A stretch of 22,583 bases of DNA from positions 1 through 22,583 of the IMG/VR virus record IMGVR_UViG_3300009168_000125. One strand, 5' to 3'. The notes beneath the pieces were generated by a model that ran no database searches, had not been told where the DNA came from, and saw nothing but the letters and a program-made list of their open reading frames with translations. Below are positions 1 through 3,982 of this stretch, piece by piece (within the stretch, counting starts at the first letter, position 1; each line of letters opens with the position of its first letter). This DNA is from a virus. The position numbers and the translations under genes were made by a program.

Positions 1-1229
1 CACAGCAACACGGGGACATCGCTTCCAGCCATCCGTGCCGCATCTTTTTCAAAGTCGGCAACCGCATTCTTGGCTGGCGCTGGAACCAGATACTGGGCTC
101 GTTCCATCCTCCGTATACCTGGCGCATAACAATTATGGCACAATAATCCATTTGCGGTAAAGGTTTTTGATGATGTTTGTAAATCTATCATTTCAATTTT
201 TTTGTGCAAATTTTTTATAGATTTTATTTTAACAGCATTGGGAATGCGTTTAAAATATTTATATAACTTTTCTTTTTTTCTACTAATGGCAGGATTAAAA
301 ATATTAAAAAATCTAATACTTTCTTCTTGACCTCCTTTTAATATTATTATTATAACTTTTTTATTAGTACCGAGTTCAGAACTTTCTGAATATTTGAAAT
401 TGAAAACATCTAATGCTTTTTTAATAAAACCAAGGATTCTTTTGTCTGAATTATAAATTTTTATACTTCCCTCAAAAGAACCTTCGGCATCAAAAATACC
501 TGAAATAAAACCGCGATAATATTCTAAGTCATATTTATAAGAAATAATATCTTGTATTTTTAAGATATCATTTCTTTTGTTTGTCCTAATTGCATACATT
601 TTTTTTGTAAACATAAATTCATTAACAATTATATTATTTAATTTTAAATAATATATTGTTCTTTCAATCCCCTGCTTATCGATTAAAGCAAGTCTAAAAG
701 AATTTATAGAATTACCGCCAGATTTTCTTTTGGCATATTTATAGAATCCAATAGTTCCATCTCCTCTTATAATTCCGGACAAATATCCTAATATAAAATT
801 GGGTGTTTTTTCATAATTTTTAAGAATCCCATAACTATTTATTTTATTTTTTGTAGTCAAATATGGCCGTCGGCCCTTGCCAGACATTTCGCCAATTGTA
901 TATTTCCATCTTCTATCAGTTATCCATTTATGATTTTTTGAGCAGATAACAGAATTGCCATCTATCATTTTTATTTCATAGGCATCTTGATAACTTTTAA
1001 TGATATTTTCAACAGTAGCTATTTTTATTTTTTTATTACTTCCTGTTTCATCAAAACCTAAAACAGTATCACCTATTTTTAAGTTTTTTATTTTTTTTAA
1101 TGTTAGGTCTGCCATTAAAATATTAGTATCAGGATGGAGGCAGTACAAACAGCCGTGGTCGCATCCGCTGTACAGATTCGCGGCAAGCGGCGAATACTCG
1201 CGCGCCTTTCCTGATGGTTCATAAATCAT
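1..1229 (-). CDS. Radical-SAM protein (SplB/COG1533-like) interrupted by an intein; partial
   Basis: The frame is open from the ATG at 1229 to the window edge (409 codons, no stop), so the C-terminus is missing. A ribosome site AAAGGAG (1239-1245) lies 9 bases upstream. Residues 1-29 read like the N-terminus of spore-photoproduct-lyase-like radical-SAM proteins (YEPSGKAREYSPLAANLY, then C23, C27). The host sequence resumes at residue 367 with CYAPGIRRMERAQY and later DVPVLL. Removing residues 30-366 rebuilds GCDHGCLYCYAP, the CxxxCxxC motif that binds the 4Fe-4S cluster and SAM. Known relatives cleave SAM to make a 5'-deoxyadenosyl radical; the substrate of phage members is not something I can read here. 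The host part is GC-rich (35 of 60 bases at 1141-1200), the insert extremely AT-rich. It lies downstream of the 71-residue gene on the same strand. Confidence 0.9.
   Translation of the reverse strand, partial: MIYEPSGKAREYSPLAANLYSGCDHGCLYCLHPDTNILMADLTLKKIKNLKIGDTVLGFDETGSNKKIKIATVENIIKSYQDAYEIKMIDGNSVICSKNHKWITDRRWKYTIGEMSGKGRRPYLTTKNKINSYGILKNYEKTPNFILGYLSGIIRGDGTIGFYKYAKRKSGGNSINSFRLALIDKQGIERTIYYLKLNNIIVNEFMFTKKMYAIRTNKRNDILKIQDIISYKYDLEYYRGFISGIFDAEGSFEGSIKIYNSDKRILGFIKKALDVFNFKYSESSELGTNKKVIIIILKGGQEESIRFFNIFNPAISRKKEKLYKYFKRIPNAVKIKSIKNLHKKIEMIDLQTSSKTFTANGLLCHNCYAPGIRRMERAQYLVPAPAKNAVADFEKDAARMAGSDVPVLL
132..1142 (-). mobile_element. Class 1 intein with LAGLIDADG homing endonuclease (337 aa)
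   Basis: Intein of 337 residues (host residues 30-366). Block A begins with Cys1 in CLHPDTNIL. Block B is SKNH, with S97 and H100 of the precursor. The C-terminal blocks read MIDLQ...FTANGLLCHN, giving the penultimate His and terminal Asn, followed by the +1 extein Cys367. All residues needed for Cys-type splicing are present. Two LAGLIDADG motifs lie between the splicing blocks: LGYLSGIIRGDG (precursor 147-158) and RGFISGIFDAEG (239-250), each keeping its acidic catalytic residue (D157, E249), so the endonuclease looks intact. Length matches a splicing domain plus a two-motif endonuclease. Composition is sharply AT-rich (10 of 60 bases are G or C at 301-360), unlike its host gene, which fits recent horizontal arrival. 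Boundaries are set by the host motif. Confidence 0.95.
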
Positions 1230-1504: not shown

Positions 1505-1617
1505 ATTTTCCTCCTTATTTAAAAGAGCCCTCAAAGCATCCAAAGTCCGTTTTCTCGGATCTCCGGGGTGGCAGTAGCAGACCCGGCTAAGGATGCACCA
1601 CTATTTGTCTGGGCTAT

Positions 1618-1679
1618 AAAAAAACGCCCCAGGCATCGGACCGCAGTCGGGAGCTGGCTCCGATGTTTATCCAGGGGCG
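1618..1679 (-). terminator. Rho-independent terminator (minus strand)
   Basis: Two stacked stems, CGCCCCTGG/CCTGGGGCG and CATCGGA/TCCGATG, with a small internal bulge (ATAAA, 1670-1666) on one side and an 18-base loop, are followed by TTTTTTT on the minus strand. It would end transcripts coming from the ribbon-helix-helix gene or from the promoter at 1717-1746. The long loop is unusual for a plain terminator, and is explained if it also pairs with 1699-1708. Confidence 0.7.
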
Positions 1680-1710
1680 CTTATCTGTTATGCTGTTTTC
1701 CCGACTGCAT
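1618..1710 (-). ncRNA. Candidate structured small RNA ending in a Rho-independent terminator
   Basis: Three sets of complementary arms lie within 93 bases. In minus-strand order: arm a GCAGTCGGGA (1708-1699), b CGCCCCTGG (1679-1671), c CATCGGA (1665-1659), a' TCCCGACTGC (1652-1643), c' TCCGATG (1640-1634), b' CCTGGGGCG (1633-1625), then seven Ts (1624-1618). Arms c/c' (7 bp) and a/a' (10 bp) are perfect; b/b' has one T-T mismatch. b-c-c'-b' form a hairpin and U-tract, a terminator. Arm a' is in the hairpin loop and pairs with arm a upstream, giving either a pseudoknot or a competing antiterminator. A promoter-like sequence ends just before arm a. No ORF of note lies inside. It may be a free-standing RNA or an attenuator between the ribbon-helix-helix gene and the 71-residue gene. 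I do not recognise the class. Confidence 0.6.
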
Positions 1711-1716
1711 GCACAT

Positions 1717-1746
1717 AGTTTACGCCTGCCGCTCGCCCGTTGTCAA
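1717..1746 (-). promoter_or_regulatory. Sigma70-type promoter for the structured RNA
   Basis: On the minus strand: perfect -35 TTGACA (1746-1741), 18-base spacer, -10 TAAACT (1722-1717, 4 of 6 matches). The predicted start near 1710 falls just before the first pairing arm of the RNA. The -35 box overlaps the stop codon of the ribbon-helix-helix gene (1745-1743), so promoter and coding end share bases. Predicted only. Confidence 0.5.
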
Positions 1747-3520: not shown

Positions 3521-3982
3521 GTGCTTGATTGCTTCCATGGGGATGGAACAATATGGGCAAATGTAAAAAGAAATTCAGATAAACAAATTGTGGTTAACGG
3601 AATAGATATACAAGAATATGATGCTTTTGGGATGATCGGCGACAACTTGAAATTATTACAGACGATTGATTTGTCTAAATATGATGTTATTGACCTTGAC
3701 GCATACGGCGTTCCGTGTGACCAGCTTGAAATAATATTCTCACGAGGCTATAAAGGCATAATATTTTTCACATTTATTCAGACCATGTATGGCGGCCTGT
3801 CCCTGTCCCTGTCCCTGTCCCTGTACCTGTCCATAGGTATTGATGCCATGATAAAAAAATGTCCTTCTGTTTTCAATAAAAAAGGACTGTTTTTATTTTT
3901 TGAATATTTAAACAAGCATGGCGTGAAATGCGTTGCCTATATACGTCACGGTAAAAAAGTATATGGCATCTTCCAAGCTTGA
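3521..3982 (+). CDS. Trm1-like SAM-dependent methyltransferase; start uncertain
   Basis: From GTG 3521 the protein is 153 residues: SAM-binding VLDCFHGDGTIW, then DVIDLDAYGVP (like the DxxYGxP motif of Trm1-type RNA methyltransferases), then a C-terminal AYIRHGKKVYGIF. The same frame is open 33 codons further upstream to 3422, with plausible coding sequence (NNSFLRDKILLRLKHLPVKK) leading into the fold, but contains no ATG, GTG or TTG. GTG 3521 would begin inside the first beta strand and has a poor ribosome site. The true N-terminus may start at a rare codon (ACG 3434) or be joined to the ParB-like gene by a frameshift at AAAAAA (3444-3449). An in-frame hexamer repeat encodes LSLSLSLSLYLS. 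AT-rich (20 of 60 G+C at 3541-3600) versus the next gene (40 of 60 at 4021-4080), suggesting transfer. RNA or DNA target unknown. Confidence 0.65.
   Translation: MLDCFHGDGTIWANVKRNSDKQIVVNGIDIQEYDAFGMIGDNLKLLQTIDLSKYDVIDLDAYGVPCDQLEIIFSRGYKGIIFFTFIQTMYGGLSLSLSLSLYLSIGIDAMIKKCPSVFNKKGLFLFFEYLNKHGVKCVAYIRHGKKVYGIFQA
3796..3831 (+). repeat. CCTGTC hexamer microsatellite, six units
   Basis: CCTGTC four times, CCTGTA, then CCTGTC, inside the methyltransferase gene. Units are in frame and encode alternating Leu-Ser. Gain or loss of units changes the protein by two residues without shifting the frame. Confidence 0.9.

Follow-up and report, generated by a model that had tools for sequence, protein, structure and literature searches.

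A predicted phage RNA with complementarity between its 5′ end and its terminator loop, and the recurrence of this layout in other virus records

Short RNAs with a promoter and a terminator of their own are encoded by the phages lambda and P22 (OOP) and P22 (sar); these RNAs are antisense to a gene, and sar adjoins an Arc-like gene. Attenuators of the pT181 type rely on an antisense RNA that acts in trans and triggers the terminator through alternative helices. In a C. difficile prophage, the AbiF-associated RNA RCd22 (Rfam RF03085) accumulates as a small RNA, with the terminator stopping most of the transcription (PMC12373285). The immunity RNA of phage P4 (CI RNA, seqA/seqC) is a processed RNA that pairs with flanking sites (PMC4825925), and RydC is a short sRNA whose pseudoknot is needed for stability (PMC4337610).

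In this study, an RNA element found in a window of 22,583 nucleotides (the whole stretch of DNA analyzed) was compared with these systems. By analogy, the nearest described counterparts would be RCd22 and the P4 immunity RNA in layout and RydC in fold, a resemblance that shows membership in none of them. With RCd22 the element shares the order of promoter, structured RNA (~100-130 nt in RCd22), intrinsic terminator, ribosome-binding site and gene. RCd22, however, carries a pair of conserved abiF motifs and lies ahead of an Abi gene, whereas the window's RNA has no Rfam match and a different downstream gene, its special feature in this comparison being the pairing between leader and terminator loop. 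Like the P4 immunity RNA, it is a phage leader with internal complementarity in which pairing governs premature termination, a control that is known for P4 and predicted for the window. Unlike in P4, the complementary partner sits in the terminator loop itself, and a scan of the P4 genome did not find the leader/terminator-loop layout. RydC is likewise a short RNA with a pseudoknot (a predicted one in the case of the window's RNA), but it is Hfq-dependent and enterobacterial and has another sequence and topology. The likeness to OOP and sar is that of a phage-encoded short RNA with its own promoter and terminator, and an RHH/Arc-like ORF lies next to the element. OOP and sar overlap a gene on the other strand, and opposite the element lie only unsupported short ORFs. 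The promoter-linked oop terminators of lambda and P22 show no complementarity between terminator loop and leader. In attenuators of the pT181 type, RNA-RNA loop contacts decide over an intrinsic terminator in a leader, as is predicted for the window's RNA. They differ in their use of an antisense RNA, and no antisense promoter was seen across the window's locus in the promoter-site listing.

Genomic position and predicted promoter

The 22.6 kb virus record represents a tailed phage, with genes for terminase, portal, head protease, further head proteins and a long tail protein. Direct reading and recomputation place the whole element on the minus strand, which had been left unstated in the preceding sequence-only reading. 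The gene order on this strand, from right to left, is a 47-aa RHH-like ORF, the element, a 71-aa ORF and an intein-split radical-SAM gene. The element had been placed between a DNA-binding microprotein and a radical-SAM operon. The neighbors agree with this: upstream, the 47-aa RHH/Arc-like ORF (P0002, 1743..1886, minus strand) has weak PHROG matches to Arc-like repressors (E 0.018-0.042), and downstream a radical-SAM gene lies beyond the 71-aa ORF. A lone-sequence model of the 47-aa ORF gives a helix-helix arrangement (pLDDT 72); the structure models of both small ORFs are too weak for use.

The first gene past the terminator is the 71-aa ORF (P0001, 1289..1504, minus strand), which is preceded by an AAGGAGG ribosome-binding site at ~1516-1510, has no Pfam or PHROG match and is unassigned in function. 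Between terminator and this ORF lies a gap of 113 nt. Since no promoter-like site is listed between 1617 and 1504 on the minus strand, the 71-aa ORF, and perhaps also the radical-SAM gene, should depend on readthrough for expression. The radical-SAM gene (3..1229, minus strand) runs off the window and consists of a PA0069-like extein with a LAGLIDADG intein inside. Its CxxxCxxC motif is split by the intein with its LAGLIDADG endonuclease (GCDHGCLY / CLHPDT ... HN / CYAPG), and the insertion point is apparently located just before the third motif cysteine.

The sequence-only reading had also proposed a promoter belonging to the element itself, and such a promoter-like site was confirmed on the minus strand. 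A -35 box TTGACA (1741..1746), which overlaps the stop codon region of the RHH-like ORF, is separated by an 18-nt spacer from a -10 box TAAACT (1717..1722), and the two together score 10/12 against the sigma70-like consensus. With a start placed 7 nt past the -10 box, the predicted RNA comprises ~90-94 nt (1617..1710, minus strand), and the strong intrinsic terminator (hairpin -32.3) lies no more than 110 nt past this sigma70-like promoter. Both promoters and terminators were called by consensus match, and the whole analysis is sequence-based. A 9-codon ORF, ATG CAG TCG GGA AAA CAG CAT AAC AGA TAA (1681-1710, minus strand), covers the 5′ arm and has its stop directly ahead of the terminator stem. 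No ribosome-binding site is visible for it, and with a transcription start at 1710 it would be a leaderless ORF.

Some further features of the window were noted. TTGCGTAAATCGTTACACCATAAGGAATTACG occurs twice (2272-2310 and 2347-2380), ~75 bp apart, in a divergent intergenic region, and an inverted repeat ACAAATAAAGT...ACTTTATTTGT is located at ~1925-2010; these copies and the repeat are possible operators or a possible origin. A CCCTGT tandem repeat at 3797-3833, within an ORF at 3521-3982, encodes an SLSLSLSL run and is a possible slippage site.

Arms, chance expectation and folding of the window's RNA

All arms described previously are present where they had been placed, and the 10-bp pairing of the 5′ end with the terminator loop was reproduced by recomputation. 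In the minimum free energy (MFE) structure, the RNA begins with a leader hairpin, AUGC-A-GU[CGGGAAA]AC-A-GCAU (1690..1710; this and all following features on the minus strand), whose 7-nt loop contains part of arm a, GCAGUCGGGA (1699..1708). Arm b, AAGCGCCCC (1674..1682), is the 5′ side of the outer terminator stem and arm c, CAUCGGA (1659..1665), that of the inner 7-bp stem. Arm a′, UCCCGACUGC (1643..1652), lies within the 18-nt loop enclosed by c:c′ and is followed by c′, UCCGAUG (1634..1640), by b′, GGGGCGUUU (1622..1630), on the 3′ side of the outer stem, and by a U7 tract (1618..1624). Pairing is perfect over 10 bp for a:a′ (11 with one G-U) and over 7 bp for c:c′, and b:b′ consists of 8 Watson-Crick pairs and one G-U. 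The six arms are disjoint, with no base in common, and the linker between a′ and c′ is indeed only 2 nt (GG) long.

That the complementarity between 5′ end and loop exceeds chance was found with the terminator hairpin fixed and the preceding 81 nt shuffled: a match of at least 10 to the 18-nt loop arose in 11 of 20,000 shuffles (5.5e-4). The MFE of -34.1 lies below that of 200/200 dinucleotide shuffles (-25.4 +/- 3.2, z -2.7), and among 101 terminators with an interior of at least 12 nt in 0.9 Mb of viral DNA the longest match is the 10 nt of the window. Chance alone would give 0.15 hairpins of 7 bp with a crossing 10-bp arm per whole window, and a second such structure, AT-rich, is in fact present at ~1949-2004; the evidence from the window's copy alone is therefore good, not overwhelming.

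Searches for relatives of the element gave no second copy. Neither the 71-aa ORF (in viral, genome and phage collections) nor the RHH-like ORF yielded a usable homologue, the DNA of the locus had no copy of the element in phages and plasmids, and no copy of the region was found in the capsid, terminase and ParB-like relatives of the window's phage. The 18 matches of the two-arm pattern across all viral contigs include no copy of the element and correspond to chance background only. Rfam covariance models gave no match to the window at gathering score, and for 1480-1800 there was none even at E<=10, which speaks against a known Rfam family. A type III toxin-antitoxin RNA, which would consist of tandem pseudoknot repeats accompanied by a ToxN/CptN/TenpN-like gene, does not fit either, as the element is a single unit and the 71-aa ORF lacks a Pfam match.

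These results bear on one alternative, namely that the RHH-like gene simply ends in a usual intrinsic terminator, the 10-nt match having arisen by chance and the promoter-like hexamers being fortuitous. The terminator does lie ~125 nt 3′ of the stop codon of this ORF on the same strand, which, together with the 0.15 crossing arms expected per window and the lack of homologues, fits such an explanation. The conditional chance of 5.5e-4, the perfect TTGACA with its 18-nt spacer just upstream, and the fact that the layout recurs and covaries in other phages (see below) argue against it, and we consider it unlikely.

The sequence-only reading had left open whether the arms form a compact pseudoknot or a switch between terminated and antiterminated states, and had regarded complete simultaneous pairing as strained. 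Stack sums amount to ~-24 kcal/mol for a:a′, ~-19 for b:b′ and ~-14 for c:c′. In equilibrium folding without pseudoknots, b:b′ and c:c′ take nearly all of the weight, with a probability of ~0.999 for b:b′ and of 2e-5 for nested a:a′. Judged by geometry, a:a′ and b:b′ should be able to coexist as an H-type pseudoknot with relaxed connecting loops of ~17, 21 and 12 nt, in which case termination could proceed with a and a′ paired. The strained part would be c:c′, and the 2-nt linker would matter only once this helix is added, which argues that c:c′ is partly lost (or a:a′ in one section), and not the terminator. A switch between mutually exclusive folds was not supported, as the three helices are disjoint, the terminator fold dominates at equilibrium, and a:a′ and b:b′ are compatible. 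A classical two-state attenuator or riboswitch, in which terminator and antiterminator share nucleotides, was rejected because of the disjoint arms.

The kinetic form of such a switch deserves separate mention. Here, an early a:a′ helix, strong or aided by a factor, would delay b:b′ until the polymerase has cleared the U tract. When 64-82 nt have been transcribed, a:a′ is the best nested fold (-22 kcal/mol), and the terminator takes over only at 85 nt, so a kinetic effect is possible. However, b:b′ can close over an intact a:a′, with which it shares no base, and the equilibrium strongly favors the terminator; antitermination of this kind therefore seems very unlikely to us.

From the sequence we infer that the RNA is transcribed and terminated, in which order it folds in the cell, and that it has a regulatory role. 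The reading that we prefer, with modest confidence, is a promoter-proximal conditional terminator in which the loop clasps the 5′ end, which releases a stable ~90-nt RNA and which limits readthrough into the operon of the 71-aa ORF and the radical-SAM gene. RNA polymerase would start near 1710 and make the 5′ arm and then the terminator hairpin, whose loop is complementary to this arm. In the emerging RNA, a:a′ would pair first and b:b′ would then close the stem next to the U tract, with release of a pseudoknotted or kissing RNA at ~1617. Because the 5′ hairpin has the loop CGGGAAA and the nested MFE structure has a weak stem at the terminator apex, around UCCC (part of CUCCCGA), the contact might begin between the two loops. 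Most transcripts would end as a compact, stable RNA of ~90 nt, and the two genes downstream would be reached by readthrough alone. The clasp would probably speed or stabilize folding of the terminator and protect the 5′ end, and a partner RNA or protein binding to either loop could alter readthrough.

Alternatively, the element might be a free-standing phage sRNA that acts in trans, with a seed in its 5′ arm that the terminator loop keeps closed up to the encounter with a target; the downstream genes would then be incidental. It has the full anatomy of an sRNA with own promoter and terminator, the gap to the next gene measures 113 nt, and pseudoknots stabilize known sRNAs such as RydC (PMC4337610). 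Among the gene starts of the phage itself, though, no convincing target emerged (best z -2.8 in 58 tests), and look-alikes in other phages mostly directly precede genes, which makes a purely trans-acting RNA improbable. No complement of the RNA longer than 11 nt is present elsewhere in the window.

Leader and terminator loops in other virus records

Two sets of virus records were scanned for the same layout. The first was fetched via capsid and ParB-like genes with no selection for RNA features, and the second (1.54 Mb) comprised the whole records of first-set and related loci, examined by the same rule with first-set repeats removed. The records are host-unassigned fragments, with relatives reached through one or two gene families. 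Strong terminators were defined by a dG of <= -18 and an unpaired stretch of at least 5 nt. In the first set, complementarity to the upstream leader stood out at terminators followed by a ribosome-binding site. Pooled over both sets, a loop-loop match of at least 6 nt was present at 10/20 terminators located between a sigma70-like promoter and a ribosome-binding site, compared with 28/601 terminators with neither (Fisher 3e-8; 5/14 and 5e-4 after related leaders had been collapsed by hand). With swapped leaders, 2.2% showed such a match. A cross-pairing matrix is partly circular, its entries having been picked for matching, and the proof rests on the count of 10/20 and on the covariation count of 39/42 given below.

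The layout was seen in L037/L046, L051, L108/L067/L117/L194 (family C), L119 and L050/L123/L145/L148/L176/L183 (family A), and loop pairs were also found in L172/L185/L147 (family B). In the alignment of the six family A leaders, which was built from sequence alone, leader-loop columns 24-30 pair with terminator columns 122-128 in 39/42 cells (93%), 9 of which changed on both sides, whereas slid partners pair in 21-43%. A covariance model whose structure did not contain the loop-loop contact retrieved two new members that keep the match, L174 (E 4e-10; 7 nt, GTGGTAA/TTACCAC) and L155 (E 3e-7; 6 nt, TTATCA/TGATAA); in a third, weak match (L162, E 0.007), the contact is not clearly seen. In family B, TTGGTCTGTT/AACAGACCAA in L172/L185 is replaced by TTGGTGTGTT/AACACACCAA in L147, a change from C-G to G-C within a 10-nt match. 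Direct reading of family C gave the loop pairs CCCTTAC/GTAAGGG, CCCAA/TTGGG, CCATAA/TTATGG and CCTATA/TATAGG. These contacts misalign column by column and yield no counted covariation, which was counted for family A only. The family C leader L194 belongs to G003. This is also the record of L007, which has a capsid protein 43% identical to that of the window.

Recurrence and covariation elsewhere lend more weight to a pseudoknot or kissing contact than the window's sequence could on its own, and the compact pseudoknot-type RNA, one of the two outcomes originally considered, is thus the likely product. The window's RNA is probably a single-contact example of the layout. In common with the layout it has a promoter, a short leader, a strong terminator and a long complement (10 nt, where at least 6-7 nt of perfect match between leader and terminator interior define the layout), and it lacks a ribosome-binding site immediately 3′ of the U tract (the Shine-Dalgarno sequence follows ~100 nt downstream) and the second contact that families A and C appear to have. 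The automatic loop-loop test did not flag it because part of a′ is weakly paired in the nested MFE structure.

At slightly looser limits, none of the 13 promoter-linked cases in eight annotated phages (P4, N15, part of HK022, lambda, P22, TP901-1, Dulem virus 36 and A118) had a match. No Rfam match was found in the records scanned for leader RNAs at the thresholds used, and no description of the leader-loop/terminator-loop layout was found in the openly readable literature; large motif collections such as PMC8040213 could include such RNAs. Where recognizable from sequence, the downstream genes look early or regulatory, namely Rha/KilAC-like (L051), KilAC-like (L067) and a VapE-like replication protein (L037).

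Taken as sequence evidence, the pairings and the changes on both sides in other phages point to a little-known early stop switch for phage genes. A broader proposal, which we put forward tentatively and regard as rather doubtful, would be a widespread and undescribed class of operon leaders in uncultivated phages, in which one or two leader loops kiss terminator loops and the loop sequences drift freely as addresses, serving RNA immunity or coordination by way of termination; among these leaders, the window's RNA would count as a compact one with a single contact. Since both halves of the contact are present in a released leader, other leaders that have these loops could be its targets. Intrinsic terminators are usually taken as self-contained hairpins. 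If leader loops routinely clasp the terminators of early phage operons, termination would hang on a tertiary contact that can be reprogrammed in sequence, which would create a natural point of control open to testing and a supply of orthogonal RNA parts. A further gain would be a concrete rule for finding phage regulatory RNAs that escape profile libraries owing to the drift of their contact sequences.

Several observations on individual leaders may be added. The family A RNA (150 positions in model R1) has a long terminator stem, two inner hairpins and one or two leader contacts, and is found at L050:5945-6096, L123:14534-14676 (minus strand) and L155:7187-7332 as well as in L145, L148, L174, L176 and L183; with no Rfam match in the records scanned, it is a candidate for a new structured RNA family. 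G051 contains two family C leaders, L117:12341-12479 (minus strand) and L108:1784-1920, with different kissing loops (CCCTTAC, CCATAA), and G029 also has two leaders, L067 and L119. Two leaders of G017 have a common loop pair, GTAACGA with TCGTTAC or TCGTTAT. In L037:1375-1584 (minus strand) and L046, a 7-nt bulge in a long leader terminator, GGGTCAA, is exactly complementary to the loop of the preceding hairpin, TTGACCC, and a VapE-like gene lies downstream. In L036:949-1060, finally, the apical loop of the terminator, CGCTGTCC, is complementary to the ribosome-binding-site region GGACAGCG just downstream, which by its sequence might represent a variant acting on translation.
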